Shown: positions 13,662 to 58,245 of the stretch, one piece after another
How the letters are laid out: the number at the start of each line of letters is the position of its first letter
How positions within the stretch are numbered: position 1 is the stretch's first letter
NCBI RefSeq assembly: GCF_016765655.2
Contig: NZ_CP086106.1
Coordinates: 979,501 to 1,043,500, forward strand
DNA length: 64,000 nt
Direction: 5' to 3'
Origin: Skermanella mucosa
Lineage (GTDB): Bacteria > Pseudomonadota > Alphaproteobacteria > Azospirillales > Azospirillaceae
Position numbers and translations under genes: made by a program
Notes under the pieces: generated by a model
What the model saw: the letters and a program-made list of their open reading frames with translations, nothing else
Told to the model about the DNA's origin: nothing
Databases searched by the model: none

Positions 13662-14330
13662 ATGCAACCAGCCCCCGGTACCTCCTCAACCCCGGTGATC
13701 CGCCTGACCGCCCGCCAGGAGGCGTTCTGCCAAGCCATGGCCGCCAATGTGGGCGGGGCGGAGGCGGCCCGGCGGGCGGGCTATTCGCCGAACGGGGCGA
13801 AGCAGCGCGGCGCCTTCCTGATGACCCAGCCGGAGATCCGCATCCGCGTCGATCAGCTCCGCGCCGCCCGCGCCGGCAGCCACGAGGCCGACCTGGAGGA
13901 GGCGGCGGAGACCGTCAAGACCATCATCGCCGAGGCCATGGACAAGAGGTCGCTGTCGCTCGCCCTGCGCGCGGTCGAATTGCGGCTCAAGCTGCGCGGC
14001 GTGATCCGGGACAAGCGGATTCCCCACCACTATGTCAGCGACGCCCCGCACCCCGACGCCGACCTGGAGCAGCTTGATTTCGACCCGGCCGAGGATGACG
14101 ACACCCCCGCCGCCGAGATGCCGTCAGAGACCCCGGAAGAGGCCACGTCAGAGGCTGCGGCCGAGGCGCCGGCCGAAACAGTGACCCCGGATAGTGACCC
14201 TGCGCCCGCGCCCGTCACCTCTCCGGCCGGGCGGCCGACGTCGGCAAACCCCACGCAGAAGCCGTTCCGCCACCGCGAGCGGGGCGGCAGCCCGGGCCGC
14301 GAAGGGCACCGGGACCGCCGCGCCGCTTAA
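13662..14330 (+). CDS. Phage terminase small subunit-like protein (orphan)
   Basis: About 222 residues from ATG 13662. Residues about 12-75 match the helix-turn-helix of terminase small subunits: LTARQEAFCQAM, then GGAEAARRAGYSPNGAKQRG and a basic helix. In phages this subunit recognises DNA for packaging. Here no large terminase, portal or capsid gene follows, and the C-terminal third (from about residue 125) is a low-complexity Pro/Ala/Glu/Thr tail ending in Arg/Gly-rich sequence. It may be a prophage remnant or a domesticated DNA-binding protein. The frame is open much further upstream (to 13347) but without homology-like sequence. Confidence 0.65.
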   Translation: MQPAPGTSSTPVIRLTARQEAFCQAMAANVGGAEAARRAGYSPNGAKQRGAFLMTQPEIRIRVDQLRAARAGSHEADLEEAAETVKTIIAEAMDKRSLSLALRAVELRLKLRGVIRDKRIPHHYVSDAPHPDADLEQLDFDPAEDDDTPAAEMPSETPEEATSEAAAEAPAETVTPDSDPAPAPVTSPAGRPTSANPTQKPFRHRERGGSPGREGHRDRRAA

Positions 14331-18118: not shown

Positions 18119-18230
18119 GGTGCGCAGTACCGGTCCGCCGTCGATGTTCAGGGATTTCCCATAGTCTATGCCCTGCGGACCGCTTAGTCACATCCCCTGG
18201 AGGAGGATGGACACGGAAGAACTGGCGGGA

Positions 18231-44203: not shown

Positions 44204-46123
44204 TCAATCCGCGTCGGCCGTTTCCCCGGCGAGCGCCGAAGGCCGGTAGAGGGATTGCGGCACCATGGGGATCGGCGAGCGCCGGGGCAGTGCAGGGCGT
44301 GCGCCGGCTCCGGCGAAGCCGTCGCCCGGGCCGGGGGCACGCAGGCGGGCCGCCAGTTCGGTCAACTCGGGCTCGGGCACGACCTCCGCCGGGATCAGGA
44401 ACAGGCCGAGGCGGCGGGCCGCCAGCCCGGCGTCGCGCCGGCTCGACCAGCTCGTCAGGACCGGGCTGAGCACCAGGCCGGCGATGATCGGCGACATCCA
44501 CCAGAACAGCACGGGACCGACCAGCAGGGCCGTCGAGGCCAGGACGAGGCCCAGGATCACATGCACCGCATGGCGCTGGAACGCCTCGCCCAGCCCCACG
44601 CCGCGGTCGCCGCGCGGCTGGGCGTCCCAGGAGACGATCCGCCCGGCCAGGGTGGAGACGACGAAACGCGTGTAATAGGCCATGTGGACCGGCGCCTGCA
44701 GCGTCGAAAACACCTGTTCCAGCAACGCGCTGGCCAGCAGGCGCGGGGCGCCGCCGAATCCGGCCCGCGCCCTGGCGTCGGCCAGGACGGCCGCCAGGCT
44801 CAGCAGCTTGGGCAGGAACAGCAGCGTCAGGGTCAGGGCGAACATGGCGGCCGCCGCGGCGCCGGGATTGAACAGGCCGGAGGTCAGCAGGCCGTAGCCG
44901 CCGCGCTCCTCCCCCAGGATCAGCTGGCCGGCCGACAGCACCAGGAAGGCGAACCACACCGGGGCGGAGACGTAGCACATGATGCCCATCAGGATGTGCA
45001 GGCGGCCCGGCCAGCGGATGCCGTGGGCCGGCAGGAAGCGCATGTGCTGGAGGTTGCCTTGCGCCCAGCGCCGGTCGCGGCCGGCATAGTCGATGGTGTT
45101 GGCGGGGATCTCCTCCCAGGTGCCGCCGAGCAGGGGGAGCACCCAGGTCTCCCACGGGCCGCGCCGCATGAGGCAGGCTTCGACCACGTCGTGGCACAGG
45201 ATCTCGCCGCCCAGCGGGGCCTTGCCGGGAAGCACCGGCAGGTCGCAGTGGTCCATGAAGGCCTTGACCCGGACGATGGCGTTGTGGCCCCAGTAGTTGG
45301 CGTCTTCCTGCTGCCAGAAGTTCAGTCCCAGGACCGACAGCGGCGTGTAGAGGTTGGCGGCGAACTGGTGGATGCGGGAGAACAGCGTTTCCCGATTGAC
45401 CGGATGGGAAACGGTCTGGATCAGGCCGATCCGGGAGTTGTCCTCCATCAGCCGGATCATGCGGCGGATCGTGTCGCCGCCCATCAGGCTGTCGGCGTCC
45501 AGCACCACCATGAAATCGTACCGGTGTCCCCAATTGATGCAGAAATCGGCGAGGTTGCCGGCCTTGCGCCCGCCATTGTCCTGGCGCCTGCGGTAGAACA
45601 CCGCCGGAAGCCCCGGCTGACCGGCGAACTCCGCCAGCAGGGCGTCGTAGGCTCGCTCCTCCGCCCGCCAGATCGCCTCGTCGCGGGTGTCGCTCAGGAC
45701 GAACAGGTCGATCCGCCCGACCTCGCCGGTCCGCTCCAGCGAGCGGGCCATCACCGCGACGGCGGCGAACACCGCGGCGACGTCCTCGTTGTAGATCGGG
45801 AGCACCACCGCGGTCCTCGCCCTGGGCGGGGTCATGACGTCGATTCCGGCGGCGGCCCGCTCCAGCGGCGGAAAGGCGCGCCTGCCCAGGCAATGCACGA
45901 CGAATCCCAGCACCACCTGCCAGCCGTTCAGCGCCAGCCAGCCCAGGTTGAGCGTGAACAGGATCACCAGCACCCAGTCCAGGCCGGTCCGGGGTCCGCC
46001 CATCGCCTCGGCCGCAAGCACCGCCGAAAGCAGGGTCAGGAAAAGCGCCGGGCCCAGAAACAATGCCCTGCGCACCGCAAGGGACAGGCGCGGCGAAGTC
46101 TCGGCCGAGGGATCGAGCGTCAT
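44204..46123 (-). CDS. opgH: Glucans biosynthesis glucosyltransferase H
   Basis: Inner-membrane GT2 of 639 residues that elongates beta-1,2-linked osmoregulated periplasmic glucan (OPG). Two N-terminal membrane segments are followed by the catalytic domain with LPIYNED (about 108), LDADSLMGGD (about 210) and the acceptor motif RDRRWAQGNLQH (about 345), then further membrane segments. Length is shorter than the 840-residue enterobacterial form because of a shorter N-terminus. It is divergent from the opgD-like gene across 74 bases, so the two are probably controlled together. Confidence 0.93.
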   Translation of the reverse strand: MTLDPSAETSPRLSLAVRRALFLGPALFLTLLSAVLAAEAMGGPRTGLDWVLVILFTLNLGWLALNGWQVVLGFVVHCLGRRAFPPLERAAAGIDVMTPPRARTAVVLPIYNEDVAAVFAAVAVMARSLERTGEVGRIDLFVLSDTRDEAIWRAEERAYDALLAEFAGQPGLPAVFYRRRQDNGGRKAGNLADFCINWGHRYDFMVVLDADSLMGGDTIRRMIRLMEDNSRIGLIQTVSHPVNRETLFSRIHQFAANLYTPLSVLGLNFWQQEDANYWGHNAIVRVKAFMDHCDLPVLPGKAPLGGEILCHDVVEACLMRRGPWETWVLPLLGGTWEEIPANTIDYAGRDRRWAQGNLQHMRFLPAHGIRWPGRLHILMGIMCYVSAPVWFAFLVLSAGQLILGEERGGYGLLTSGLFNPGAAAAAMFALTLTLLFLPKLLSLAAVLADARARAGFGGAPRLLASALLEQVFSTLQAPVHMAYYTRFVVSTLAGRIVSWDAQPRGDRGVGLGEAFQRHAVHVILGLVLASTALLVGPVLFWWMSPIIAGLVLSPVLTSWSSRRDAGLAARRLGLFLIPAEVVPEPELTELAARLRAPGPGDGFAGAGARPALPRRSPIPMVPQSLYRPSALAGETADAD

Positions 46124-46197
46124 GGAACAGGTGGCCTTCCGGGAAGTTATTGCTGGGCACGGCGCCCCCTGAATGGAGCCGAGGACAGGGCTTATCG

Positions 46198-47778
46198 ATG
46201 AACCACCGCGCCGACGATTTTATTCTGTGGAAACGGTTGTTTTCACGCAGGTCGTTCTTATCCGGATCCGCCGGCGTGGGAAGCGCCTTGCTGCTGTGCG
46301 GTCCCGGCATAGGGAGCAATCGTGGCATCGCAAGGGCGGAGGGAAGCTTCGGGTTCGAGCAGGTCAAGCGCATGGCGGCCGAGCGGGCGTCCCGGCCCTA
46401 CCAGCCGCCCGAGGAGACCATGCCGGCGGTGCTGCGCGACATGAGCTACGACCAGTACCGCGCGATCCGTTTCCGCCCGTCCAGCGCCCTGTGGGCCGAC
46501 GGGAACGGTTTCAAGGCGCAGTTCTTCCATCGGGGCTTCCTTTATCGGCGGCGGGTCCGCGTCGGCATCGTCGAGGACGGCATCGTGACGCCGGTGGCCT
46601 ACCGTCCGGACATGTTCGACCTCGGCGGCCTCGACGTCCCGGACCTGCCGGACCTCGGGTTCGCCGGGATTCGGCTGCACCATCCCGCCGGCGGGGGCTC
46701 CACCGGCGACGAGTTCGCGGTGTTCCTCGGCGCGTCCTATTTCCGGCTGATCGCCCGGGGGCAGGAATACGGGATTTCCGGCCGGGGGGTAGCGGTCAAT
46801 ACCGGCGGTTCCGAGCCGGAGGAATTTCCCGATTTCACGGAATTCTGGATCGAGCGCCCGGAAGCGGGAGCGGAGGAGATCACCGTGCTGGCGCTGCTCG
46901 ACGGGCCGAGCGTGACCGGCGCCTTCCGGTTCCGGCTGCGACCCGGCGACACCACCCGGGCGCGGGTAGACGCCTCCCTGGTCCTGCGCCGGCCGGTCGG
47001 CCAGCTCGGCCTGGCGCCGCTGACCAGCATGTTCCTCCATGGCGAGAACGGCCCGCGCGGTTTCGACGATTTCCGGCCGGAGATGCACGACAGCGACGGG
47101 CTGCTGATGCTGGACGGCGCCGGGGAGTGGAGCTGGCGCCCGCTGGTCAACGGCCGCCCGTCGCCGCTCGCCACCGGCTACGCGATGGCCGGACCCGGCG
47201 GCTTCGGCCTGATGCAGCGGGACCGCGACTTCGCCAGCTACCTGGATGTCCAGGCGATGCACGAGCGCCGGCCCAGCCTCTGGGTCGAGCCGCGGGGCGA
47301 CTGGGCGCAGGGCGTTCTCGAACTCTACGAATTCCCCTCCCTGGAGGAGTACAACGACAACATCGTGGCCTACTGGGTGCCGCGACGGCCGCCGGATCCG
47401 GGCCGGCCGCTGGATTTCGGCTATGACTTGACCGTGATGGACGGCGGCACCGGCCTGTACCCGCTGGGGCGGGTGACGGGGACGCATATCGGCTCGGCCG
47501 AACGGCTGCGTCCGACGGTGCCGCCCTCGCCGGAGCGCCGGTTCTTCGTGGTGGATTTCGAGGGGGACGGGCTGCCGGGTCACGGCGCCGGCCTTTCCGC
47601 TGATGTCACCGCTTCCGCCGGCGCGGTGGTCGAGCCGGTGGTCGAGCATGTGCCGCAAACCGGGGGCTGGCGCCTGTATTTCGAGTATCGGCCGGTTGAA
47701 GATGCGCCGGCGGAGCTGGCGGCGCGGCTGATGCGGAGCGATCGGGTCATGACGGAGACATGGCGCTTTACCTGGTGA
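46198..47778 (+). CDS. opgD: Periplasmic glucan biosynthesis protein, OpgG/OpgD family, Tat-type signal
   Basis: Protein of 526 residues. A twin-arginine signal (SRRSFL, arginines 17-18, before a hydrophobic stretch) means Tat export; OpgD in E. coli is Tat-exported while OpgG is Sec-exported, so OpgD is the better label, though the choice is tentative. The family core starts FGFEQVKRMAAERA and includes QYRAIRFRP, FLGASYFRLIARGQEYGISGRGVAV and LYEFPSLEEYNDNIVAYW. It probably shapes or branches the backbone released by OpgH. The stop begins a 15-bp repeat that also encodes the end of the convergent UDG-family gene. Confidence 0.88.
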   Translation: MNHRADDFILWKRLFSRRSFLSGSAGVGSALLLCGPGIGSNRGIARAEGSFGFEQVKRMAAERASRPYQPPEETMPAVLRDMSYDQYRAIRFRPSSALWADGNGFKAQFFHRGFLYRRRVRVGIVEDGIVTPVAYRPDMFDLGGLDVPDLPDLGFAGIRLHHPAGGGSTGDEFAVFLGASYFRLIARGQEYGISGRGVAVNTGGSEPEEFPDFTEFWIERPEAGAEEITVLALLDGPSVTGAFRFRLRPGDTTRARVDASLVLRRPVGQLGLAPLTSMFLHGENGPRGFDDFRPEMHDSDGLLMLDGAGEWSWRPLVNGRPSPLATGYAMAGPGGFGLMQRDRDFASYLDVQAMHERRPSLWVEPRGDWAQGVLELYEFPSLEEYNDNIVAYWVPRRPPDPGRPLDFGYDLTVMDGGTGLYPLGRVTGTHIGSAERLRPTVPPSPERRFFVVDFEGDGLPGHGAGLSADVTASAGAVVEPVVEHVPQTGGWRLYFEYRPVEDAPAELAARLMRSDRVMTETWRFTW

Positions 47779-48511
47779 CGTCCAGTCGTCGGGCGTCCAG
47801 TCGTTGGGCGGCCAGCCGCTCCGCCGCCGCCGTCAGGCAGGCCGAGATCCGGCGTGCCACGTCGGGGCTGGTGCAGACATAGGTCGGGCTGGGGTGCGGC
47901 ATGGCAAGGCACGGGATGTTCCGGGCCTCCAGCAGGCCCCGGGCGGCCTCGGCCTTGCGCCCGGCGGTGACGGCCAGCTCCAGCCCCGGCAGCAGGTCCA
48001 GGAAGTCGGGCAGGTGGAGCAGCCCTTGGGCGACCTGGGCCCGGGTCGGGTTGCGGTTGGGCGTGCCCGGAACCTGGATCAGCCACGGGACGATGTTCCA
48101 GATCACCGTTTCCGCACGGGCGATGCCGGCCTGTTCCAGGAAACGGAACAGGTTCGCGGCGGTCCCCGTGGGGTTGTCCCGCGACACGAACCCGGTGGTC
48201 AGCATCTTGGGTCCCGGCGTTTCCAGCAGGATCAGCAGCCTTGCCGACACGCCGCCGTCGAGCGGGTCGGCCAGCGGAACCGGGCTGCCCATGCGGGTAG
48301 CCAGATCCCTGGCGTACCGCGTCAGCGGCCGCACGTGCGCGCTGTCCGTCAGCGTCCCGCGCCGGGCCAGCTCGCCCGGATCGCGGAGCGCCTTGGGGAG
48401 TGAAGCCCGGGGCGAGACCTGATGTGGGATGGTGGTACGGTCAGTCAATTTCGGATTTGATTTTAATTTTGGGCAGGTACTTTGTAGTAGAGGCAAGAAT
48501 TTGAACCGCAT
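47768..48511 (-). CDS. Uracil-DNA glycosylase superfamily protein
   Basis: About 247 residues if it starts at ATG 48511; the frame is open to 48625 and the start is uncertain. LLILLETPGPKM is in the position of the UDG GxEPG-like loop, with NIVPWLIQVPG later and the C-terminal loop AMPHPSPT matching the conserved HPSP motif. The LLETPGP loop lacks the usual acidic residue, so it may not remove uracil; related family members have other or no known activity. It is divergent from the inositol synthase gene across a gap that holds the 16-bp palindrome. Its last codons lie in a 15-bp repeat. Confidence 0.75.
   Translation of the reverse strand: MRFKFLPLLQSTCPKLKSNPKLTDRTTIPHQVSPRASLPKALRDPGELARRGTLTDSAHVRPLTRYARDLATRMGSPVPLADPLDGGVSARLLILLETPGPKMLTTGFVSRDNPTGTAANLFRFLEQAGIARAETVIWNIVPWLIQVPGTPNRNPTRAQVAQGLLHLPDFLDLLPGLELAVTAGRKAEAARGLLEARNIPCLAMPHPSPTYVCTSPDVARRISACLTAAAERLAAQRLDARRLDVTR
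47777..47821. repeat. 15-bp tandem repeat at converging gene ends
   Basis: Three 15-base units, GACGTCCAGTCGTCG and variants, begin within the opgD stop codon. They encode RLDA/RLDV in the C-terminus of the UDG-family protein on the other strand. Confidence 0.7.
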
Positions 48512-48571
48512 TCCACAAAAGGAAACATAGTATCCAGATGTATATTTGGGTAGCCCGGATGAACGCAACTT

Positions 48572-48587
48572 CTCGCCAATTGGCGAG
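48572..48587. promoter_or_regulatory. Perfect 16-bp palindrome, candidate operator of the inositol cluster
   Basis: CTCGCCAATTGGCGAG is its own reverse complement. It lies 92 bases before the inositol synthase ATG and 61 bases from the UDG-family start. Its length and symmetry suit a dimeric repressor such as a TetR, LacI or GntR type, but no such regulator is encoded in the cluster. Confidence 0.5.
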
Positions 48588-48678
48588 TGTCCTGTTTGGA
48601 TCTGCCAACCATCCTCCGTTCCCACAGATGCGAGTTCAAAGTCGGCGCGCCCGCGTCCGACGAAATTCCGGAGGATTT

Positions 48679-49944
48679 ATGAGCGAGATGCCTGCACGCC
48701 GTCTCGGCGTTGCAATCGTTGGTTTGGGTGGGGCTGTCGCAACGACGGTCGCAGCCGGGCTGGAAATGATCCGCCGCGGCGCCGTCGATCTGTCGGGTTT
48801 GCCGCTGGCCGATGCCAACCACGCCGGATTGGCGCCCTACCAGAACATCAGCCTGGCCGGCTGGGATCTCTATCCGGACGATCTCGCCTCCGCCGTCAGG
48901 CAGCACGGCGTCCTGGGACCGGCCGAGCTTGATCTGGTCCGCACCCAGTTGGAAGCGGTCCGGCCCTGGCCCGCCGTCGGCAACGTCAAGTTCTGCCGCA
49001 ACGTCGCCGGCCGCGAGGGAGCGAACCTGACCTCCATGCGCGACCAGGTGGCGAGCCTGAAGGACGACCTGACCCGGTTCAAGGCCGACAGCGGCGTCGA
49101 CGACGTGGTGGTGGTCCACCTCGCCTCGACCGAGCGGCTGGTCGATACCAAGCTGCCGCAGTTCGCGACGCCGGAAGCGTTCGAGATGGCCCTCGACGCC
49201 GACGATCCGGAGATCGGTCCGGCGATGCTCTATGCCTATGCCGCGATCACCAGCGGCATCCCGTACGGAAACTTCACCCCCAGCGTCTCGGCCGACATCC
49301 CGGCGCTGAAGGAGCTGGCGCGGCGGCACGGCACCCCGATCGCCGGCAAGGACGGCAAGACCGGGCAGACCCTGATCAAGACCGTTATTGCGCCGGCGCT
49401 GCGCGGGCGCTCGCTGAAGGTGGACGGCTGGTACTCCACCAATATCCTCGGCAACCGGGACGGGCTGGCACTGGACGATCCGAGTTCGCTGGCGTCCAAG
49501 CTGGACACCAAGGGGTCGGTGCTTGACAGCATCCTCGGCTACAAGGTCGAGAACCACAAGGTGTTCATCCACTACTACCCGCCGCGCGGCGACGACAAGG
49601 AGGCCTGGGACAATATCGACCTGACCGGCTTCCTCGGCCACCGCATGCAGATGAAGATCAACTTCCTGTGCAAGGACTCGATCCTGGCGGCCCCGCTGGT
49701 GATCGAGATCGCCCGGTGCCTGGATCTGGCGAAGCAGCGCGGACAGGGCGGCGTGCTGGAGGAGCTTGGCGTCTTCTTCAAGGCGCCGCTGATGACGAAC
49801 GGCGCCGAGCCGGAGCACGCCTGGCCCGAGCAGGAGCGCCGGTTCCGGGCTTGGCTCGACGGGGCGGACAGCCCGGTAACCGCGACGGAACGCAGCGAGC
49901 AGTCCCTGAAAGCGGCCGCGGCGAGCCTTGCCGATGTCGGTTGA
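48679..49944 (+). CDS. ino1: Inositol-3-phosphate synthase
   Basis: Enzyme of 421 residues that converts glucose-6-phosphate to 1D-myo-inositol-3-phosphate using NAD. ATG 48679 follows CCGGAGGA. The Rossmann motif VAIVGLGGAVATTVAAG is at residue 10. GKDGKTGQTLIKT, SLKVDGWYSTNILGNRDG and the catalytic lysine region (NHKVFIHYYPPRGDDKEAWDNIDL and MKINFLCKDSILAAPL) are typical of bacterial and archaeal forms. Ino1 supplies inositol for mycothiol, phosphatidylinositol or compatible solutes; here it opens a nine-gene cluster, so a dedicated product is likely. Its stop overlaps the start of the HD gene. Confidence 0.95.
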   Translation: MSEMPARRLGVAIVGLGGAVATTVAAGLEMIRRGAVDLSGLPLADANHAGLAPYQNISLAGWDLYPDDLASAVRQHGVLGPAELDLVRTQLEAVRPWPAVGNVKFCRNVAGREGANLTSMRDQVASLKDDLTRFKADSGVDDVVVVHLASTERLVDTKLPQFATPEAFEMALDADDPEIGPAMLYAYAAITSGIPYGNFTPSVSADIPALKELARRHGTPIAGKDGKTGQTLIKTVIAPALRGRSLKVDGWYSTNILGNRDGLALDDPSSLASKLDTKGSVLDSILGYKVENHKVFIHYYPPRGDDKEAWDNIDLTGFLGHRMQMKINFLCKDSILAAPLVIEIARCLDLAKQRGQGGVLEELGVFFKAPLMTNGAEPEHAWPEQERRFRAWLDGADSPVTATERSEQSLKAAAASLADVG

Positions 49945-50830
49945 CCAGTCCCTGCTTCCGCTGCTGCGGGAGATCAACGACCTGAAGCGGGTGCGGGCCG
50001 CCGGCATCGAGGGAACCTTGGCGGCGCGCGCTTTCCGGCGCGCCTGGGGGCGGCTGGCGGCGGGGGACTCCCCCGCCACCGTCGCCCTGCGGGAAACCGC
50101 GCTGGCGGTGGCCGCCGCCCGGCTCGGCGGCATCGACCGCGCCATGCTGACCCGCGCAGGGCTCGACGACGATGCCGCGACGGGGGTGCTTCGGAACGGC
50201 TTCGACGCCGTCGCCGGCCCGGTCGACCCGATACTGGCGGCGGCGCTGCGCGACCATCTGGGCGAGCATGATCCCGCCGCCGCGGAGCCGCCGGCCTTCG
50301 TCCATGACCTGGAGCGGCAGCCGCGCGCGGGCGCCACCCGGCCGGGACATCCCCGGCTGGTGCTGGAGCCGCCGGAAAGCCATGCCGACCATTGCTTCGT
50401 CACGGCCGTCACCGCGGCGCTGGTCAGCCCTTCCTACGGGGCCGACCCGGCGGCGCCGTTCCTGGCCGGACTGTGCCACCATTTCCACAACGCCACGCTG
50501 CCCGACAGCGGCTTCGCGGGGGAGGTGCTGCTGGGCGACCATCTGGACTCCATCATCCGGACCCTGACCTACGAGGTCGTCGCGACCTTGCCCGACCATC
50601 TGGCGCACGCCTGCGAACAGGCCCGCAAGCTCCTGCCGCACGCGGAAACGCCGGAAGCCAGGGCCTTCCATGCGGGCGACGTGATCGACCGCATCCTCCA
50701 GATGGACCATTACGCCCGGGCCGCCGGCTTCGAACTGCGCCACGCGGTCGAGGAGATGGAACTGGTCCATGCCGGTCCGCTCCAGGATTTCCAGACCGGC
50801 ATGCTGCGCGACGTCGGGCTGATGCGGTGA
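49934..50830 (+). CDS. HD-superfamily hydrolase, HD_3-like
   Basis: About 298 residues, starting at ATG 49934 inside the end of ino1 (a TTG at 49928 is also in frame). The second half shows an HD fold like YfbR-type nucleotidases: ESHADHCFVTAV (about 145), the metal-site segment AGLCHHFHNA, LGDHLDSI, and GDVIDRILQMDHYARAAGF with the distal Asp. The usual HD pair reads HH here, a change that could alter the metal site. The N-terminal 120 residues have no recognised domain. Given its neighbours, a phosphatase acting on inositol phosphate or a phosphorylated pseudodisaccharide is the simplest hypothesis. Coupled to the methyltransferase by a GTGA overlap. Confidence 0.65.
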   Translation: MSVDQSLLPLLREINDLKRVRAAGIEGTLAARAFRRAWGRLAAGDSPATVALRETALAVAAARLGGIDRAMLTRAGLDDDAATGVLRNGFDAVAGPVDPILAAALRDHLGEHDPAAAEPPAFVHDLERQPRAGATRPGHPRLVLEPPESHADHCFVTAVTAALVSPSYGADPAAPFLAGLCHHFHNATLPDSGFAGEVLLGDHLDSIIRTLTYEVVATLPDHLAHACEQARKLLPHAETPEARAFHAGDVIDRILQMDHYARAAGFELRHAVEEMELVHAGPLQDFQTGMLRDVGLMR

Positions 50831-51990
50831 CGGAAGCCCTGCCCCTGCTGAGCCCGACGACCGGCCGGCCGCTGCACGCCGAAGGTCCGGGCTGTCTCAC
50901 CGACGGGACGGAACGCTGGCCCGTGGTCGCCGGCATCCCGTTCCTGCGCACCGGCCGGGAGGGTTTGCGCGATGCGGCGCTGGCTGCGATCGACCGCGGT
51001 GACGAGCGCGCGGCGCTGGCGCTGCTGCTGCGCGACCAGGACGACTGGGCCCGCATCCCGCCGCCCTCGTTGGACACCGCAGGCCGTCTCGCCGACGCCG
51101 TCGGGCACATGACCCTGCGCGAGGCCATGGCGGCGCTGAACTTCGGGCCGGTGGCCCACTACTTCGCCCACCGCTGGTCGGCGCCGACCTTTCTGTCCGC
51201 CCTGGGACTGCTGGAGGCCCGCTGGACCGATCCGCCGCTGGTGCTGGAGATCGCCTGCGGCATCGGACAGATCCTGCGCGACCTGGACCGGCGCGGGACG
51301 GCCGTGGCCGGGATCGACGTGGTGTTCGCCAAGCTGTGGCTCGCCAAGGCTTTCCTGATTCCCGACGCCCCGCTGGTCTGCGCCGACGTCACGTCCGGTA
51401 TCCCGATGGCGCTGCCGGAGGGGACGGCGATCCTGTGCCACGACGCCTTCTATTTCATGCCGGAGCAGGAGCGGATCGCCGGTCATCTGATGCGGGCCGC
51501 CGGAGCCTCGGGAACGGTGCTGATCGGGCACGCCCACAATGTGCGGTTCGAGCATGGCATCGCCGGCCGGCCGCGCACGCCGGAGGAATACGCGGCGCTG
51601 TTCCCCGGCTGCCAGCTCTACGACGACGCCGAACTGGCCCGCTCCCCGACGCCCACCCGCACGGCGGAGGAACTGGCGGCGGTCGAGGCGGTCTCGCTCG
51701 CCTGGAGCGCCGGGACGGTCGATACCCGTCCGGTAGACCTCCGCTCGCCGCCGCCCGGCGCCCGGCTCCGGATCAATCCCTTGCTGGAGCGTGACGGAAA
51801 CCGCCTGCGGCCGGTCTGGCCGACGCCCGCCTTCGCCCGCGAATACGCATCGGCGACTTATCTGGAGGCCGAGATTCCGCCCGAAGACCTGCCCGAAGAC
51901 ACCCTGGGCGGCGACTTCCGCATCGACGATCCCCGGATCCGGGACTTGGCCCGGCGCCGCATCCTGCTTGACCTGCCGGAGCGCTGGTGA
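50827..51990 (+). CDS. SAM-dependent methyltransferase with Trm112-like N-terminus
   Basis: Protein of 387 residues starting at GTG 50827, overlapping the previous stop. Residues about 7-42 (LLSPTTGRPLHAEG, then WPVVAGIPFLR) look like a Trm112/UPF0434-type domain without cysteines. The class I methyltransferase core has motif I LEIACGIGQILRDL (about 140), an acidic AGIDVVFAK strand and ILCHDAFYFM (motif IV). The last 120 residues are an uncharacterised extension. Such enzymes in sugar pathways methylate hydroxyl or amino groups of sugars; the target is unknown. Followed directly by the Gfo/Idh gene (TGATG overlap). Confidence 0.82.
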   Translation: MTEALPLLSPTTGRPLHAEGPGCLTDGTERWPVVAGIPFLRTGREGLRDAALAAIDRGDERAALALLLRDQDDWARIPPPSLDTAGRLADAVGHMTLREAMAALNFGPVAHYFAHRWSAPTFLSALGLLEARWTDPPLVLEIACGIGQILRDLDRRGTAVAGIDVVFAKLWLAKAFLIPDAPLVCADVTSGIPMALPEGTAILCHDAFYFMPEQERIAGHLMRAAGASGTVLIGHAHNVRFEHGIAGRPRTPEEYAALFPGCQLYDDAELARSPTPTRTAEELAAVEAVSLAWSAGTVDTRPVDLRSPPPGARLRINPLLERDGNRLRPVWPTPAFAREYASATYLEAEIPPEDLPEDTLGGDFRIDDPRIRDLARRRILLDLPERW

Positions 51991-52979
51991 TGGCTGGCCG
52001 GGAATTGGGCTGGGCCGTGGTCGGCTGCGGCTGGGTGGCCCGCGACTACGTCATCCCGGCGATCCACGCGGCACGGAACGGCCGCGTCGTGGCGCTCTGC
52101 GACCGCGACCCCTCGGGGCTGGGCAGCCTCGGCACCTCGGACTTGGCGGCCGTGCTGTCCGATCCCGCCGTCCGGGCCGTCTATGTCGCGACGCCCAACG
52201 ACCAGCACATGCCGGTGGTCGCCGCCTGCGCCGCCGCCGGCAAGCATGTCCTGTGCGAGAAGCCGATGGCGACCCATTCGGCCGACGCGGAGATCATGGT
52301 GGCCGCCTGCAAGGAGGCCGGGGTGACCCTGGGCATCGCCTATGACCAGCGGTTCCACGCCGCCCATGTGCGCCTTCGGGAACTGGTCGCGGCAGGGGCG
52401 CTCGGCACGGTGACCCAGGCCCGCATCTTCTACGCCTGCTGGCTGCCGCCGGACTGGAGCCCCACGGATCGGAGTTCCGGCGACAACTGGCGGGCCGATC
52501 CGAACCGGGCGGGGGGCGGCGCCCTGTGGGACCTGGCTCCCCACGGCATCGACCTGCTGGAGGTGCTGCTCGGCGGCTCCTGGGCGGAGCTTCGGGCGCT
52601 TGTCCAGCGGCGGGTCCATGACTATCCCGTGGACGACGGCGCCGTGCTGACCGGCCGGTTCGAGGACGGGACGCTGGGCACCATCCAGGTCGCCTACAAC
52701 TGCCCCGACGCCTATCCCAGGCGGACGCTGGAACTGGTCGGGACCCGGGCCATGGCGGTCGCCACCGACACCATGGGCCAAACGCCCGGCGGCACCCTTG
52801 CCCTGATCGATGCCAGGACCGGCGCGCGTTCCGAAGTGCCGGTCCCCGGCGCCGACCGCAGCCCGTTCCTGAACCAGATCGAGGCGTTCGGCGACGCCGT
52901 CCTGGCCGGCCGGCCCTTTCCCTATCCCTCCGGGCGCGACCTGCGCCTGTTCACCCTGATGGAGCGATCATGCCGCTGA
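51990..52979 (+). CDS. Gfo/Idh/MocA-family NAD(P)-dependent oxidoreductase
   Basis: Protein of 329 residues. N-terminal Rossmann motif WAVVGCGWVARDYVIPAI, then ALCDRDPSGL and YVATPNDQH. Catalytic EKPM (about 93) and DLAPHGIDLLEVLLGG (about 185) with the family's conserved Asp and His. This family includes inositol 2-dehydrogenase and many sugar 3-dehydrogenases. In a cluster that starts with inositol synthesis, oxidation of an inositol or amino-inositol ring, or of the sugar, is the likely reaction. The stop overlaps the next start by 10 bases. Confidence 0.88.
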   Translation: MAGRELGWAVVGCGWVARDYVIPAIHAARNGRVVALCDRDPSGLGSLGTSDLAAVLSDPAVRAVYVATPNDQHMPVVAACAAAGKHVLCEKPMATHSADAEIMVAACKEAGVTLGIAYDQRFHAAHVRLRELVAAGALGTVTQARIFYACWLPPDWSPTDRSSGDNWRADPNRAGGGALWDLAPHGIDLLEVLLGGSWAELRALVQRRVHDYPVDDGAVLTGRFEDGTLGTIQVAYNCPDAYPRRTLELVGTRAMAVATDTMGQTPGGTLALIDARTGARSEVPVPGADRSPFLNQIEAFGDAVLAGRPFPYPSGRDLRLFTLMERSCR

Positions 52980-53803
52980 CCCAGTATGCCTGCTCCCACT
53001 GCGGGTTCTGGCAACCCTGGTTCGCCGGGCAGGACCCGATCGGCTGCCCCGTCTGCATGGACGTGCGGAACGCCCTGCCGCCGGACGGCTGGGACTTCCG
53101 CACGGCCGGGGACCTGACCGGCAAGGTCACCACCCGCTGGGCCGAGGCGATGCCCGGCATCGTCGGCTTCTCCTGCGAGCCGGCCTTCGGGCTCGGCTCG
53201 ACCGGCTGGCTGCTGCTCCGCGAGGAGGGCAACATCGCCTTCGAGGGCGCGCCTTTCTACACGCCGGAAGCGCTGGACGAGATCGAGCGGCTGGGCGGCA
53301 TCAGCATCCTGGCCGGCTCCCACCCCCACGGTTTCGGCGCCCTCTGGCAATTGGCCGAGCGGTTCGACCCGACCGTGGTGATCCACCGCGACGGGCTGCG
53401 CTACACCAAGGCGTTCCGGGTCTCGTGGCCGTCCGACGACGTCCACGCGCTGGCGCCCGGCCTGACCATGATCGCGACCCAGGGCCATTACGAGGGCCAT
53501 GCCGTGCTGCACGACGCCCGCGACCGGGCGCTGTTCTGCGGCGACTGCCTGAAGGTGGACCTGGACGGCGAGGGCCGGCCGGTGGCGCTGAGCTGCCACA
53601 AGGGCTTCCACTACCAGATCCCGCTGAGTCACGACGAGATCAGGCGCTACCGGGCCGTCTTCGCGGAACTGGATTTCGACCACGTCTTCACCCCGTTCGA
53701 GCATGCCGCCGGCGTCACCCGAGCCCACGCGCTGGGCCTGTTCGACCGCCTGCTGGCGGGCGCGCCCAGCACCCGCCCGTTTCCGCTGGAGAGCCTCGCA
53801 TGA
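52970..53803 (+). CDS. Metallo-beta-lactamase-fold protein with zinc-ribbon-like N-terminus
   Basis: Protein of 277 residues. Two CxxC pairs (CSHC at residue 8 and CPVC at 26) form a rubredoxin- or zinc-ribbon-like N-terminus. The rest is an MBL fold with a degenerate HxHxDH site (SHPHGFGALW), then HYEGHAVLHD and the Asp of ALFCGDCLKV, and a late His in CHKGFHYQ. The first metal box lacks its Asp-His, which is a known variant in some MBL proteins. Many MBL proteins with a small metal-binding N-terminus are redox or hydrolase enzymes of unknown substrate. Linked by an ATGA overlap to the YcaO gene. Confidence 0.82.
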   Translation: MPLTQYACSHCGFWQPWFAGQDPIGCPVCMDVRNALPPDGWDFRTAGDLTGKVTTRWAEAMPGIVGFSCEPAFGLGSTGWLLLREEGNIAFEGAPFYTPEALDEIERLGGISILAGSHPHGFGALWQLAERFDPTVVIHRDGLRYTKAFRVSWPSDDVHALAPGLTMIATQGHYEGHAVLHDARDRALFCGDCLKVDLDGEGRPVALSCHKGFHYQIPLSHDEIRRYRAVFAELDFDHVFTPFEHAAGVTRAHALGLFDRLLAGAPSTRPFPLESLA

Positions 53804-55260
53804 GCCTGCAACCCGTCATCAAGGCCTATACGGACAACCTGCCGCCAGGCGAGCTGGAGCATTTCCGGGTGGACGGGCTGGACCGCATCGGCGTGCCGGT
53901 CGTGTTCGCCTGCCACCGGCAGCAGGACGGGTCCCAGTTCGACAGCTTCGGCTATGGTGCCAGCTTCGACCAGGCGCTGGTCGGCGTGCTAGGCGAGCTG
54001 GCCGAGAATGTCCAGGCCGACACCGTGCTTCGGCGGCTGGAGCGGGTGACCGGCAGCTACGACGACCTCGTGGCGGCCCGGGGGGAACGCGGCGTCTGCG
54101 ACCCGCTGACCCTGTGCCTGCCGGCCGGATCCGACTATGCCCCGGACAAGCCGCTGACCTGGGTGGCGGCGCGGCGCTTTCCGTCGGGCGAGCCGGTCCT
54201 TGTGCCGTACGAGTTCGCGGCCTGCTACCGGTCGCAGCTGGACGGCATCGAGCCGCTGACGACGCCGATCACCAACGGGCTGGGCGCCGGCGACGGCTTC
54301 GAGCGGGCGCTGGTCCATGGGCTCCTGGAACTGCTCCAGCGCGACGGCAACTGCACCGGCTTCCGCGCCATGGACCAGGGGCGCGTGCTCGACCTGTCCG
54401 GAGTCAAGGATCCCGACACGCTGCGGCTCCTGGCGCACCTGGACCGGCTGGGCATCGACGTGATCGCCAAGCTGGCCGCGACGGATTTCGGGCTGGTCAA
54501 CCTCTATGTGGTGGGTTCCGACCGCGACGGCCGCTCGACCGTGCCGATCATGCAGACCGCCTGCGGCGAGGCCTGCGACCTGGACCGCGAGCGGGCGCTG
54601 AACAAGGCCCTGCTGGAGTTCTGCTCCAGCCGGTCGCGCAAGGCCATGTCCCACGGCCCGCTGGACCTCATCGAGCGGATCGCCCCCGAAGGCTACCTGG
54701 ACCGCTACCGCGCCCGCCACGTCGCAAGCGCCGAGGAGCCGCGCGCGGTCGAGGCCATGGCCGCCTGGTGCGGCCTGTCGGCCGGCGAGCTGCGCGGGTT
54801 GCTGGCGGACACCGTGCTGTCCCGGCGGACGACGGAAAGCTTCGCCGATCTTCCGGAATCCCCCGCCGACACCCCGGCCGAGCGGCTGGAAAGGATCTCC
54901 GCGATCCTTGCCGAGGCGGGCTTCGACATCCTCTACCTGGACCTGTCGCCGCCCGACGGCGCGATCTCCGCCGTCAAGGCGATCGTCCCTGGATTGGAGT
55001 GCGAGACCATGAGCTACCACCGCATCGGTGAGCGCGGCCTCCGCCGCCTGATGGAGCGGGGCAGCCCGCTCGCCGGCGTCGGGACCCCGCCGGACGGGGC
55101 CGCCGCCGTGCCGCTTCCCCGCGAGGCGGTCGAGCGGCTGGGCGGCCCGGCCTGGCTCGACACCGCCGCCATCGACCGGATCGTCGGCCGGCTCTACCCG
55201 CTGTACCGCGAGCCGGAAAGCCACGCCGTCCGCTTCGCGCTCGAAACCGCGCGATCCTGA
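53800..55260 (+). CDS. Stand-alone YcaO-domain protein
   Basis: Protein of 486 residues. YcaO signature elements are visible: FGYGASFDQALVGVLGELAENV (split over residues 49-70), TNGLGAGDGFERALVHGLLELLQRD (about 158-182) and the later ERALNKALLEFCSSRSR. YcaO enzymes use ATP to activate an amide for attack by a thiol, hydroxyl or amine, making azolines, thioamides or amidines. Here the ERD typical of the third motif reads QRD. No TfuA, ocin-ThiF or dehydrogenase partner and no precursor peptide gene was seen in the cluster, so the substrate is probably not a ribosomal peptide. It starts by ATGA overlap with the MBL gene. Confidence 0.85.
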   Translation: MSLQPVIKAYTDNLPPGELEHFRVDGLDRIGVPVVFACHRQQDGSQFDSFGYGASFDQALVGVLGELAENVQADTVLRRLERVTGSYDDLVAARGERGVCDPLTLCLPAGSDYAPDKPLTWVAARRFPSGEPVLVPYEFAACYRSQLDGIEPLTTPITNGLGAGDGFERALVHGLLELLQRDGNCTGFRAMDQGRVLDLSGVKDPDTLRLLAHLDRLGIDVIAKLAATDFGLVNLYVVGSDRDGRSTVPIMQTACGEACDLDRERALNKALLEFCSSRSRKAMSHGPLDLIERIAPEGYLDRYRARHVASAEEPRAVEAMAAWCGLSAGELRGLLADTVLSRRTTESFADLPESPADTPAERLERISAILAEAGFDILYLDLSPPDGAISAVKAIVPGLECETMSYHRIGERGLRRLMERGSPLAGVGTPPDGAAAVPLPREAVERLGGPAWLDTAAIDRIVGRLYPLYREPESHAVRFALETARS

Positions 55261-55286
55261 ACAGACCAAAGCCGAGAGGCCCGGAA

Positions 55287-56165
55287 ATGCCCCTGCGTTT
55301 CGCCTACAACACTAACGGCGCCGCCAACCACCGGCTGGACGACGCGCTCTCCCTGATCGCCGACAGCGGCTATGACGGGGTGGCGCTGACCCTGGACCAC
55401 CACCATTTCGACCCGTTCGCCCCCGACCTGGAGGGCAGGGCGGAGGCGCTGGCTTCCCGGCTGCGCGGCCTTGGCCTCGGCTTGGTGATCGAGACGGGCG
55501 CGCGCTACCTGCTCGACCCCCGCGTCAAGCACGAGCCGACCCTGCTGAATCCCTCTCCGGAAGGCCGCGCCCGGCGCGTCGATTTCCTGTCCCGCTGCGT
55601 GCGCATCGCGGCGATCTGCCAGGCGGAGGCCGTCTCCTTCTGGGCAGGCGTGCCGCAGCCGGGCGTCGATCCCGCGACCGCCTGGGGCTGGCTGGTCGAG
55701 GGCGTCGCCCAGGTCGCCGAGGCCGCCGCCGCGGACGGCGTCACCGTCGCCCTGGAGCCGGAGCCCGGCATGCTGGTGGAGACCGTGGACGATTACCGGC
55801 GGTTAAAGGCCGACTTGGCGGAGCGGACCCCGGCGCCGCTACGCCTGGCACTCGACACCGGCCACCTGCTGGTCACGGGAGAGCGCGACCCCGCGGCCGC
55901 CGTGGAGGAGTTCGCCGGCGACCTCGGCACCGTCGCGATCGAGGACATGCGCCGCGGCGTCCACGAGCATCTCCCCTTCGGCCAGGGCGACATGGACATC
56001 CCGGCGGTCCTGTCGGCGCTGGAAGCGATCGGGTTCGACCGGCTGGTCTGCGTCGAGCTGTCGCGGGAGAGCCACCGCGCCCACCTCGCCGTTCCCGAAA
56101 GCCTCCAGTGGCTGAAGTCGCGGCTCCCCGCCGCCTCCGGCCGGTCCCTGAAGCGGAGTGCCTGA
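55287..56165 (+). CDS. Sugar phosphate isomerase/epimerase-like TIM barrel
   Basis: Protein of 292 residues of the xylose isomerase-like/AP endonuclease 2 superfamily. Metal-ligand motifs are visible in strand order: ALEPEPG (Glu, about 157), LALDTGH (Asp and His, about 195), IEDMRRGVHEH (about 222) and VCVELSRESH (Glu, about 256). Family members include inosose isomerase and dehydratase (IolI, IolE), myo-inositol-related enzymes. In this cluster an inosose or aminosugar isomerisation or dehydration is plausible. The gap to YcaO is 26 bases, and 3 bases separate it from the GT4 gene. Confidence 0.85.
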   Translation: MPLRFAYNTNGAANHRLDDALSLIADSGYDGVALTLDHHHFDPFAPDLEGRAEALASRLRGLGLGLVIETGARYLLDPRVKHEPTLLNPSPEGRARRVDFLSRCVRIAAICQAEAVSFWAGVPQPGVDPATAWGWLVEGVAQVAEAAAADGVTVALEPEPGMLVETVDDYRRLKADLAERTPAPLRLALDTGHLLVTGERDPAAAVEEFAGDLGTVAIEDMRRGVHEHLPFGQGDMDIPAVLSALEAIGFDRLVCVELSRESHRAHLAVPESLQWLKSRLPAASGRSLKRSA

Positions 56166-56168
56166 ACC

Positions 56169-57440
56169 ATGCGTATCTGCTTCATCAGCCGGCGCTTCTT
56201 CCCCGCGATCTCGGGCATGAGCGTCTATGCCGCCAACCTGCTGCGCGAACTGGTCGTCGGCGGGCATGACGTCGTGATGATCTCCCAGTACCGCGACGAC
56301 CCCGCGGGCTCCGCCGTCTATGGCGGCGGCCCGCCGCCCGCGGTGCCCGGCGTCAAGGTGATCGGGCTGGAATCCCTGGGCGAGCAGGAGGTCGGCCACG
56401 GCCGGCCGGCCGATTTCGAAGCCGACATGGAGGCGATGGTCGCCGCGGCCCTGGCCGAGCATGCCGCCGCGCCGTTCGACCTCGTCCACGCCCAGTACGG
56501 TTATCCCTGCGGGCTGGCGGCGCTGGAGATCAGCCGGCGGCTGGGCATCCCCAACGTGGTGTCGATCCAGGGGGGCGACGGCCACTGGGTCGGCACCTGC
56601 TGCGCCACCCACAAGCAGGCCATGCTGGCGGTCCTGGGCCATGCCGGCGCCCTGATCATTGGCAGCCGGAGCTTCGCCGAGGAGGTCCGCGACCATCACG
56701 GCACCGACCTGGACCGCTTCGTCATCGTGCCGGGAGCCACCGACACCGAACGCTTCCATCCGCGCGCCGACCGCGACATCGGCGACCTGCAGGACGCGCC
56801 GGTGCTGCTCTATCACGGCCGCGTCGATCGCCGTAAAGGCGTGATGGAACTGCTCGACGCCTTCGCCCGGCTTCGGGAGTCGAGGCCCACCCTGCGGCTG
56901 ATCGTCTCCGGCATCGGGCCGGACCTGGAGGCGGTGCGGGAGCGGGCATCCGCCGCGGAGTTCGCCGGGGCCGTTACGCTGACCGGGCATGCCGACTATT
57001 TCGCCGCCGCCGAGGTCTACCGCCGGGGGGACGTCTTCGTCTCGCCGACATACTCGGAGGGCTTCTCCAACACGATCCTGGAAGCCATGGCGAGCGGCCT
57101 GCCGATCGTCTCGACCAACGCGGTCGGCGTGGTCGATTGCCTGACCGACGGGTCCAACGCCCTGCTGGTGGAACCGCGCGACGTGGACGGCCTGGCATCG
57201 GCGATCGGCCGGATGCTCGACGACGGGGCCTTGCGCCGGCGGCTGGCCCACCAGTCACTGGAGGAGGTGCGCAGCCTTTATTCCTGGCACGCGATCGGCC
57301 GCCGCATCCAGGAAATCTACGCCCGGCTCGGAGGAACGAAGCCCGACACGTCCTGGACCGGCATCTACGATCCGGCCGAGGTCACGCGGGAGACCGCCGA
57401 TCCGACCTGCCGGTTCCGGGCGGCCCCGCATCTGCTCTAG
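56169..57440 (+). CDS. GT4 family glycosyltransferase, MshA-like
   Basis: Retaining glycosyltransferase of 423 residues with the GT-B fold. The N-domain starts CFISRRFFPAISGMSVYAANLLREL with a glycine-rich acceptor loop. The C-domain has LLYHGRVDRRKGVMELLDAF and the nucleotide-sugar motif SPTYSEGFSNTILEAMA, in which the two glutamates are seven residues apart (E-x7-E). MshA of actinobacteria, also GT4, joins GlcNAc to inositol-3-phosphate. Its neighbours ino1 and PIG-L make that reaction a reasonable prediction here too, but many GT4 enzymes look alike. It ends 28 bases before the deacetylase. Confidence 0.88.
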   Translation: MRICFISRRFFPAISGMSVYAANLLRELVVGGHDVVMISQYRDDPAGSAVYGGGPPPAVPGVKVIGLESLGEQEVGHGRPADFEADMEAMVAAALAEHAAAPFDLVHAQYGYPCGLAALEISRRLGIPNVVSIQGGDGHWVGTCCATHKQAMLAVLGHAGALIIGSRSFAEEVRDHHGTDLDRFVIVPGATDTERFHPRADRDIGDLQDAPVLLYHGRVDRRKGVMELLDAFARLRESRPTLRLIVSGIGPDLEAVRERASAAEFAGAVTLTGHADYFAAAEVYRRGDVFVSPTYSEGFSNTILEAMASGLPIVSTNAVGVVDCLTDGSNALLVEPRDVDGLASAIGRMLDDGALRRRLAHQSLEEVRSLYSWHAIGRRIQEIYARLGGTKPDTSWTGIYDPAEVTRETADPTCRFRAAPHLL

Positions 57441-57468
57441 ACCTGCCCAAGCCAGAGGAGGCGCCCCC

Positions 57469-58245
57469 GTGCCGTCACGCACAGCGCTGTTCATCTCCCC
57501 CCATCTCGACGACGTCGCCTTTTCCTGCGGCGGGACGCTGGCCATGCTGAAGGCGGCGGGCTGGCGCACCGTGCTGGCCACCGTCTTCACGCGGTCCGTC
57601 CCCGACCCGAGCGGGTTCGCGCTCGCCTGCCAGACCGACAAGGGTTTGGCTCCCAAGGTGGACTATATGGCGGTCCGGCGGGAGGAGGATGCCGCCTTCG
57701 GGCGGACGCTGGAAGTGGACGAGGTCCATTGGCTCGATCTGGCCGAGGCGCCGCATCGGGGTTACGGCTCCGCCGCCGAACTCTTCTCGGTTATCCGGCC
57801 GGGGGACGAGATCTGGCGGGAGGCGGCGCACCGGATCGGCACGCTTGCCGGCCGGGTCGGGCCTGACCTGATGTTCGGGTGCCAGGCGATCGGCAACCAT
57901 GTGGACCACCGCCAGACCGTCAGGGCGATGGTCGAACTGGGCCGGCCCGTCGCCTGGTACAGGGACCTCCCCTACGTGATCCGGGCGCCGGAAGAGGCGC
58001 CGCCGCCGGGGCTGCCCGGCGGTCTGGTGCCGCTGGCGATTCCGGTCTCCGACCATCTCCCGGCCAAGGTCGCGGGGGCCTGCCGCTACGCCACCCAGTT
58101 GCCGTTCCAGTTCGGCGGGGCGGATCGGGTCGGTCCGGCGCTAACGGCCTTCGCCGCGGACGAGGCGAGACGGGCCGGCGGGTCCGGGTATGCCGAGCGC
58201 TTCCTGATCGACCCCTTGGCTGCAAAGTCCGTCAGTTCTGCATGA
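57469..58245 (+). CDS. PIG-L family N-acetyl-sugar deacetylase (MshB/BshB-like)
   Basis: Zinc-dependent deacetylase of 258 residues. GTG 57469 is the start, with GAGGAGGCG upstream. The zinc motifs are complete: PHLDD (His12, Asp14, Asp15) and HVDH (about 144). MshB and BshB remove acetyl from GlcNAc-inositol or GlcNAc-malate during mycothiol and bacillithiol synthesis. Placed last in the cluster after a GT4, it should expose the amine of the aminosugar for later coupling. No MshC-like cysteine ligase or MshD acetyltransferase gene exists in this window. The 3' end overlaps the convergent membrane-protein gene by 14 bases. Confidence 0.9.
   Translation: MPSRTALFISPHLDDVAFSCGGTLAMLKAAGWRTVLATVFTRSVPDPSGFALACQTDKGLAPKVDYMAVRREEDAAFGRTLEVDEVHWLDLAEAPHRGYGSAAELFSVIRPGDEIWREAAHRIGTLAGRVGPDLMFGCQAIGNHVDHRQTVRAMVELGRPVAWYRDLPYVIRAPEEAPPPGLPGGLVPLAIPVSDHLPAKVAGACRYATQLPFQFGGADRVGPALTAFAADEARRAGGSGYAERFLIDPLAAKSVSSA

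Follow-up and report, generated by a model that had tools for sequence, protein, structure and literature searches.

A nine-gene cluster in Skermanella mucosa

The window analysed here is a stretch of 64,000 nucleotides of Skermanella mucosa DNA (contig NZ_CP086106.1), and our subject is a cluster of nine open reading frames at its positions 48679-58245. All nine lie on the + strand, with a GC content at third codon positions (GC3) of 0.87-0.94. They are listed with their lengths in amino acids (aa) and their Pfam matches:

48679..49944, + strand: ino1, inositol-3-phosphate synthase, 421 aa (PF07994, 4.5e-59; PF01658, 1.1e-34)
49934..50830, + strand: HD-domain protein, possible phosphohydrolase, 298 aa (HD_3, 24.2 bits, barely passing the cut-off of 22.5)
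50827..51990, + strand: S-adenosylmethionine-dependent methyltransferase (MT), 387 aa (Methyltransf_11, 26.5 bits, cut-off 21.2)
51987..52979, + strand: Gfo/Idh/MocA oxidoreductase, 330 aa (PF01408, PF22725)
52970..53803, + strand: MBL-fold protein with an N-terminal CxxC...CxxC, 277 aa (Lactamase_B, 26.9 bits, cut-off 22.7)
53800..55260, + strand: YcaO protein, 486 aa (PF02624, 8e-54, 183.6 bits, cut-off 25.7)
55287..56165, + strand: sugar-phosphate isomerase/epimerase-type TIM barrel, 292 aa (PF01261, AP_endonuc_2, 2.3e-38, 132.7 bits)
56169..57440, + strand: GT4 glycosyltransferase, 423 aa (PF13692, PF00534)
57469..58245, + strand: PIG-L deacetylase, 258 aa (PF02585, 56.0 bits)

An earlier note, made from the letters of the window alone, had named these nine families on one strand, and the assignment holds: all are open frames and each family has Pfam support. 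From ino1 to PIG-L the junctions measure, in order, -11, -4, -4, -10, -4, +26, +3 and +28 bases. The tight packing described in that note is real, but its count of seven close junctions is one too low, as all eight overlap or are shorter than 30 bases.

Gene order and distribution

We have compared 33 related loci, all retrieved through YcaO and not counting the window. Eight core genes (ino1-HD-MT-Gfo-YcaO-TIM-GT4-PIG-L) are present in one order in 23 of the 33. Seven loci are cut by the ends of contigs or of the stretches fetched (L024, L055, L056, L057, L059, L068 and L071), and in three a single core gene was not found: MT in L042, PIG-L in L063 and ino1 in L067. The ninth gene, MBL, lies between Gfo/Idh and YcaO in 10/33 loci, nearby on the other strand in 3/33 and outside the stretch in 20/33. 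The full nine-gene order is found in four other Skermanella genomes, in L027 (another genus of the same family), in an Acetobacteraceae metagenome-assembled genome (MAG) and on a Roseomonas haemaphysalidis plasmid. Methylobacterium bullatum and M. aquaticum 22A carry eight genes in the same order with no MBL in place, and the gene order is also kept on a plasmid of Hymenobacter volaticus (L042), which belongs to the Bacteroidota. The order first noticed in the window recurs in distant genomes, and the genes are not scattered in relatives; this conservation supports the earlier note in reading the genes as a single pathway that includes an inositol-phosphate synthase together with GT4 and PIG-L proteins. 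In L042 the Gfo/Idh protein is annotated as two genes (13081-14129) and GT4 matches in two reading-frame pieces (17350-18581), possibly through frameshifts or sequence errors.

Presence was counted at E<=1e-40 with a profile of YcaO, and the counts include the source genome itself wherever it fell in the sample. YcaO occurs in 6/82 genomes of the order sample, including 5/5 Skermanella, in 6/398 of the phylum sample and in 3/385 of the class sample. For one carrier, G146, the numbers are far higher: 22/199 genomes in its family and 108/111 in its genus, which we read as Methylobacterium in the GTDB sense because G146 matches M. bullatum at 92-99% over eight genes. Other YcaO proteins among 99 genomes score at most 80 bits, versus at least 711 bits for the six orthologues. 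The YcaO-negative genome G1026 may carry the cluster nonetheless, since an open frame of 196 aa for the TIM gene is present in its 500-contig assembly; no TIM at E<=1e-20 was found in the YcaO-negative G1031 and G1050. Transfer between phyla is likely, because the Hymenobacter copy groups with Skermanella and L027 in the concatenated, GT4, ino1 and HD trees. This grouping was not recovered in the YcaO and TIM trees, so that some gene trees conflict.

The genes are inherited together

One line of evidence for a common pathway is the MBL gene, which often lies apart from the others. In the family sample of 199 genomes, taken as identical across the MBL, UDG and YcaO searches, MBL (E<=1e-40) is present in 21 of the 22 genomes with YcaO and in none of the 177 without it. 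Fisher's test gives p = 1.8e-27 by genome and, since the genomes are related, we also give the value by genus, 1e-6. The sole YcaO genome without MBL, G688, is an 82%-complete MAG. In 13 of these 21 genomes MBL is on another contig or at a large distance from the cluster, in seven it shares a contig with cluster genes, and the remaining one is G605. It was recovered in all 16 genomes queried, being far away or on another contig in 13, inside the cluster in G546 and near it in G542 and G589. No neighbour of the unlinked MBL was conserved between genera in the five loci compared.

We have also considered whether another protein replaces MBL in the gap between Gfo/Idh and YcaO. A six-frame reading of seven Methylobacterium loci turned up a longer N-terminus of YcaO and nothing else that was conserved as a protein, and the idea was dropped. 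In four of these gaps (L040, L044, L045 and L046) translation in several frames gives short stretches that resemble one another, which would fit a small DNA repeat at the place where MBL sits in other lineages.

Plasmids give a second view of co-inheritance. Across 72,556 plasmid records, YcaO (E<=1e-20), HD (1e-8) and GT4 (1e-40) occur only in the same four; MT (1e-8) is in three of these cluster-bearing records, and PIG-L (1e-10) in all four plus one weak match elsewhere. Of the nine genes, the plasmid searches covered these five, TIM and MBL. Pairwise gene distances correlate at 0.73-0.96 among eight genes over 13 chosen loci (12 for MT and PIG-L), shared descent of the hosts contributing to these values. 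Because the order is conserved in two phyla and MBL co-occurs with YcaO even when unlinked, the explanation that unrelated genes are adjacent by chance, for which we can count nothing, is practically eliminated: the nine genes are real and conserved and probably belong to one pathway.

Evidence for the individual enzymes

The cluster Ino1 and the second Ino1 of the same genome share only a 28% local match over 182 residues. This second inositol-phosphate synthase gene lies at G000:C1:3760145-3760471 and is distant in sequence from the cluster copy.

The AlphaFold model of the HD protein has a predicted local distance difference test score (pLDDT) of 87, and six residues (H150, H153, H182, H183, H185 and D249) are invariant in 23/23 alignment rows. 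Foldseek gave no match at E<=0.001, the top rows by E being unrelated folds with a probability of about 0.1; HD-fold matches were HDDC2 (probability 0.95-1.0, E 0.37-1.4) and PhnZ (0.09). A diiron oxygenase of the MIOX/PhnZ type was considered on account of its HH dyad and dropped, HDDC2 being the only HD-fold match of note; the fold evidence from the model is weak either way. Identity with a divergent EboA was likewise rejected, at an hhalign probability of 0.1.

MT matches phosphoethanolamine methyltransferases at 26 bits. Gfo/Idh has 1,5-anhydrofructose reductase as its nearest PDB profile match (207 bits; inositol 2-dehydrogenase, 4hkt, 98 bits), with E91, K92, P93, D182 and H186 invariant in the alignment. 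In MBL, H118, H120, H173, D192 and H210 are invariant in 22 alignment rows; its motif reads HxHxxG, where the usual one is HxHxDH, and a 43-residue stretch resembles PqsE. The TIM barrel (model pLDDT 90) finds UlaE 3cqj at the top of its Foldseek matches with a template modelling (TM) score of 0.79-0.80, and Art22, tagatose epimerases and IolI are also in the list. YcaO has MJ1094 as its nearest PDB sequence (100.7 bits) and scores below cut-off against both the SagD model TIGR03604 (113.7 bits, cut-off 219.25) and the McrA-glycine thioamidation model TIGR03266 (99.1 bits, cut-off 365). It thus shares its domain with MJ1094 and the SagD-type cyclodehydratases and differs from them in sitting among sugar and cyclitol genes, with no peptide substrate gene seen.

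Families shared with mycothiol biosynthesis (Ino1, MshA, MshB, MshC, MshD) are the inositol-phosphate synthase, GT4 and PIG-L, and the earlier note had built on this likeness; closer comparison loosens it. The nearest PDB entries of GT4 are 6kih (113.8 bits), 3c4q (97.2; presumably MshA) and BshA (86), and MshA (TIGR03449) is one of 41 matching GT4-type models, at 94.1 of 462.5 bits, BshA likewise staying below its cut-off at 85.5 bits. PIG-L, with H12, D14, D15, H144, D146 and H147 invariant in the alignment and no NCBIfam match, is nearest to an unnamed deacetylase (6iiy, 111 bits) and to the teicoplanin and Dbv21 deacetylases (105-110 bits), versus 25 bits for MshB. Ino1 scores 35.4 bits against the mycothiol model TIGR03450 (cut-off 638), and together with the TIM barrel it points to another kind of cluster, described below. 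In addition, no cysteine ligase (MshC) family is present among the nine genes, to which this search was limited, and the cluster adds Gfo/Idh, TIM, MT, HD, MBL and YcaO. The mycothiol-style interpretation is, judged from these comparisons, only partly supported, with no specific support for the MshA/MshB assignment. The glycopeptide deacetylases (teicoplanin Orf2*, Dbv21) are among the nearest solved relatives of PIG-L, but no glycopeptide pathway is seen among the nine genes.

A putative cyclitol module shared with ebo clusters

The TIM barrel has relatives in 37 plasmid records, 25 of them from Streptomyces. In the three Streptomyces loci that we opened the order reads ino1 - UbiA - TIM - EboA - TatD - EboE - phosphodiesterase, and in one of them (L104) the EboA-domain and EboE models pass their cut-offs. 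A Gemmatirosa locus holds relatives of the same ebo genes, with EboA not detected by tblastn. These ebo clusters (L104, L105, L106 and L107) have ino1 as cyclase and a second TIM-barrel gene. The cluster TIM is 51-56% identical to the three Streptomyces proteins and 47-48% to those of Gemmatirosa; the corresponding values for Ino1 are 35-36% over about 400 residues and 44.5% over 373. The cluster Ino1 resembles these ebo proteins more closely than it does the other Ino1 encoded in the same genome.

Scytonemin is a sunscreen. One article reports that the ebo cluster is involved in scytonemin synthesis, describes EboD as a homologue of sugar phosphate cyclases and regards a cyclitol as a likely part of the ebo product (PMC6282210). 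Because the pair recurs in the ino1-type ebo clusters of Streptomyces and Gemmatirosa, we place the TIM barrel near the cyclitol step and read Ino1 plus TIM, on the strength of their sequences, as a putative cyclitol module common to two otherwise different pathways.

Ino1 as cyclase and the same TIM-barrel protein are what the two share. The ebo loci differ in having EboA (in Streptomyces), TatD, UbiA, EboE and a phosphodiesterase; HD, GT4, PIG-L, YcaO, MBL and this MT are not annotated in the three Streptomyces loci and were not found by tblastn in Gemmatirosa. Conversely, no EboA, EboE (NF035939) or UbiA match was found among the nine proteins, with an EboA model that does detect a Streptomyces EboA, and the TIM barrel has only weak local similarity to EboE (E 0.005). 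By these comparisons the cluster is not an ebo cluster.

A proposed pathway and its alternatives

At a probability of about 0.6, we propose that the nine genes together make a small glycoside derived from inositol, by a single biosynthetic route that is so far undescribed. Direct observations are the gene set and the order of its members, the open frames, their co-inheritance and the co-occurrence of unlinked MBL; each reaction, the order of steps and a non-peptide substrate for YcaO are predicted from the protein families. Ino1 would cyclise glucose-6-phosphate to inositol phosphate, and the TIM barrel and Gfo/Idh may isomerise or oxidise the cyclitol. GT4 would add an N-acetylaminosugar, the HD protein could remove the phosphate and PIG-L would free the amine, while the methyltransferase, in most lineages, might cap a hydroxyl or amine. 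YcaO would then spend ATP to activate an amide-type group of the product, giving an amidine, a thioamide or an oxazoline/thiazoline, and MBL could hydrolyse or transfer an intermediate.

Several observations weigh against this proposal. Among the matches listed (25 of 41 matching GT4-type families for GT4), none of the nine proteins reaches an NCBIfam cut-off, which leaves the substrates of all nine enzymes open, and GT4, Gfo/Idh and TIM belong to promiscuous families. By Pfam there is no amide-forming ligase or aminotransferase among the nine genes, so that the proposal does not account for the amide on which YcaO would act. Phosphatase activity of the HD protein is doubtful because it carries HH where classical HD hydrolases have HD and the Foldseek matches to its model are poor (E at least 0.37). 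The methyltransferase was not found in the Hymenobacter plasmid locus, and on plasmids TIM (37 records) and weak MBL relatives (35 records) occur without the cluster. Finally, YcaO may yet have a peptide or protein substrate. We regard an uncharacterised cyclitol-aminosugar pathway with YcaO acting on a small molecule as the best reading of these data. Among known pathways, the fortimicin-type aminoglycosides offer a further comparison, fortimicin being an inositol-derived aminoglycoside. They share Ino1, an inositol-dehydrogenase-type Gfo/Idh, GT4, PIG-L and a methyltransferase; the cluster differs in having YcaO and MBL and in showing no aminotransferase (pyridoxal-phosphate type), resistance or transporter families among the nine.

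What the product does invites competing answers. It is conceivable, if rather unlikely, that it serves as a photoprotectant. Such a product would be a cyclitol of the enaminone or amidine type that absorbs UV, similar to a mycosporine but with inositol as its base; Gfo/Idh and TIM would supply it in keto/enol form, to be methylated by MT and coupled to an amine by YcaO. This would fit the presence of YcaO in nearly every genome of the genus read as Methylobacterium, in which ultraviolet A (UVA)-absorbing compounds are reported (Yoshida 2017 and Kamo 2018, as cited in other articles). Two carriers, Hymenobacter volaticus and Skermanella aerolata, come from air or are named for it, DNA-repair-type genes adjoin the cluster (UDG in Skermanella and Methylobacterium, two spore-photoproduct-lyase-family genes in Roseomonas), and the related ebo cluster takes part in scytonemin synthesis, as noted above. 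Against it, none of the nine enzymes is diagnostic of a chromophore, and neither an ATP-grasp MysC nor a dehydroquinate (DHQ)-synthase-type MysA, both features of the mycosporine-like amino acid pathway, is among them. Methylobamine, the named compound, is reportedly a brominated alkaloid, and no halogenase family was found among the nine genes. No article in the full-text literature searched pairs YcaO with mycosporine; other carriers come from elsewhere, such as the tick-associated Roseomonas, and UDG was not found in the stretches fetched from Acetobacteraceae, L027 and Hymenobacter. A sunscreen is possible on grounds of habitat, neighbours and the UVA compounds of Methylobacterium, none of them tied to these genes. 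A longer shot still is the more specific idea that YcaO works on a sugar or cyclitol and not on a peptide: it would activate the N-acyl group of an inositol aminosugar, with a vicinal amido-alcohol comparable to the Ser/Thr site on which cyclodehydratases act, or couple an amine to a keto-cyclitol. The result would be a photoprotectant induced by stress, produced by almost all Methylobacterium and horizontally shared with bacteria of exposed surfaces.

It appears improbable that the product is a mycothiol-like redox cofactor or low-molecular-weight thiol, with sulfur inserted by YcaO into a GlcN-inositol scaffold: Ino1, GT4 and PIG-L are in place and YcaO is nearest the McrA-glycine thioamidation type, but the similarity to MshA, mycothiol INO1 and MshB is weak, no cysteine-ligase family is among the nine genes, and glutathione (GSH) is the usual thiol of these bacteria. 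We give as little credence to a cluster for a ribosomally synthesized and post-translationally modified peptide (RiPP), in which YcaO would modify the peptide and the sugar genes decorate it. Every YcaO enzyme of known function that we know of acts on peptides or proteins, which speaks for it, as does the score against the SagD model, although that cut-off is not reached. Gaps of at most 28 bases leave no room for a precursor between genes, and a search in or within 3 kb of 19 loci yielded 799 small open reading frames, 87 of them with cross-lineage matches at E<=1e-3; the best 25 of the 87 are weak matches in scattered locations, and no evident conserved position near the cluster emerges from them, though a precursor gene away from the cluster is conceivable. 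Very improbable, finally, is a divergent ebo-type cluster whose cyclitol carrier moves metabolites to the periplasm. The TIM and Ino1 identities to the three Streptomyces clusters would agree with it, as would the mdoH/mdoG periplasmic-glucan genes near the cluster in several lineages; the missing EboA, EboE and UbiA-type matches, the HD-EboA comparison and the faint TIM-EboE similarity speak against it.

In favour of novelty, the statement of the earlier note that no described pathway has this gene set is borne out as far as we could search: no description of the cluster was found in the open full-text literature, with most subscription journals, bioRxiv and MIBiG outside the scope, and novelty is not proven. 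Nor does any article in the full-text literature searched combine any three of YcaO, inositol-3-phosphate synthase, glycosyltransferase and PIG-L. An article naming YcaO with Methylobacterium and Skermanella concerns, in its accessible text, a Roseomonas mucosa YcaO in azole peptides. We have seen no description of this pathway even though its YcaO is present in 108/111 genomes of the genus read as Methylobacterium, leaf bacteria that have been studied well. If the proposed cyclitol-aminosugar pathway is true, a small molecule would join the peptides and proteins that are, to our knowledge, the known substrates of YcaO enzymes, and the shared Ino1-TIM module would tie inositol synthesis to the poorly understood ebo clusters. 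Laboratory strains of Methylobacterium are genetically tractable, which allows a direct search for the product.

Upstream signals and neighbouring genes

Upstream of ino1 we observe an extracytoplasmic function (ECF)-sigma-like motif, GGAAC-N17/18-GTT, 88-103 bases before the gene in 10 of 29 loci (the window among the 29), the expected number being 0.010 per 300 bases. The carriers are 8/12 Methylobacterium loci and 2/3 of genus g270 (L040, L044-L046, L058, L060, L062, L066, L063 and L064, with L040 and L044 near-identical). The M. extorquens consensus given in the available part of PMC4814048, GAAC-N16,17-C/GGTT, is found in its strict form before ino1 in 2/28 loci (L063 and L064; background 0.012 per 300 bases). 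Neither form occurs before MBL (0/13), and no GGAAC-N17/18-GTT precedes ino1 in Skermanella, Acetobacteraceae or Hymenobacter. Given these counts, a general stress-response promoter before ino1 is to be taken as a lead rather than a finding. Scanning for sigma-70 sites gave nothing, and terminator-like sites were at chance level (4 versus 3.6).

Three genes lie on the 5' side of the cluster:

47771..48625, - strand: UDG-superfamily protein, divergent neighbour and candidate associated gene (PF03167, 37.2 bits)
46063..47778, + strand: mdoG-type periplasmic glucan gene (PF04349, 565.6 bits)
44204..46123, - strand: mdoH-type glucosyltransferase (NF003958, 699.4 bits, cut-off 419)

The UDG gene adjoins the cluster in the window, in 4/4 further Skermanella and in 11/12 Methylobacterium loci; in Roseomonas a relative lies elsewhere on the plasmid. 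In the family sample it occurs (E<=1e-20) in 16 of the 22 YcaO genomes versus 2 of the 177 others, also when unlinked (for example in G523, G559 and G613), and it adjoins MBL in G629 and G662. The association is weaker by genus (p 0.0075), and related UDG proteins are present in 65 plasmid records, most without a YcaO match. The gene may serve DNA repair or be a tenth gene of the pathway.

On the Roseomonas haemaphysalidis plasmid (L039) the two spore-photoproduct-lyase-family genes follow the cluster at 18798-20919. mdoH-like genes lie near the cluster in four lineages (the window, L027, L069 and L039), and in L039 the mdoH-like gene comes directly after PIG-L, with a 4-base overlap.

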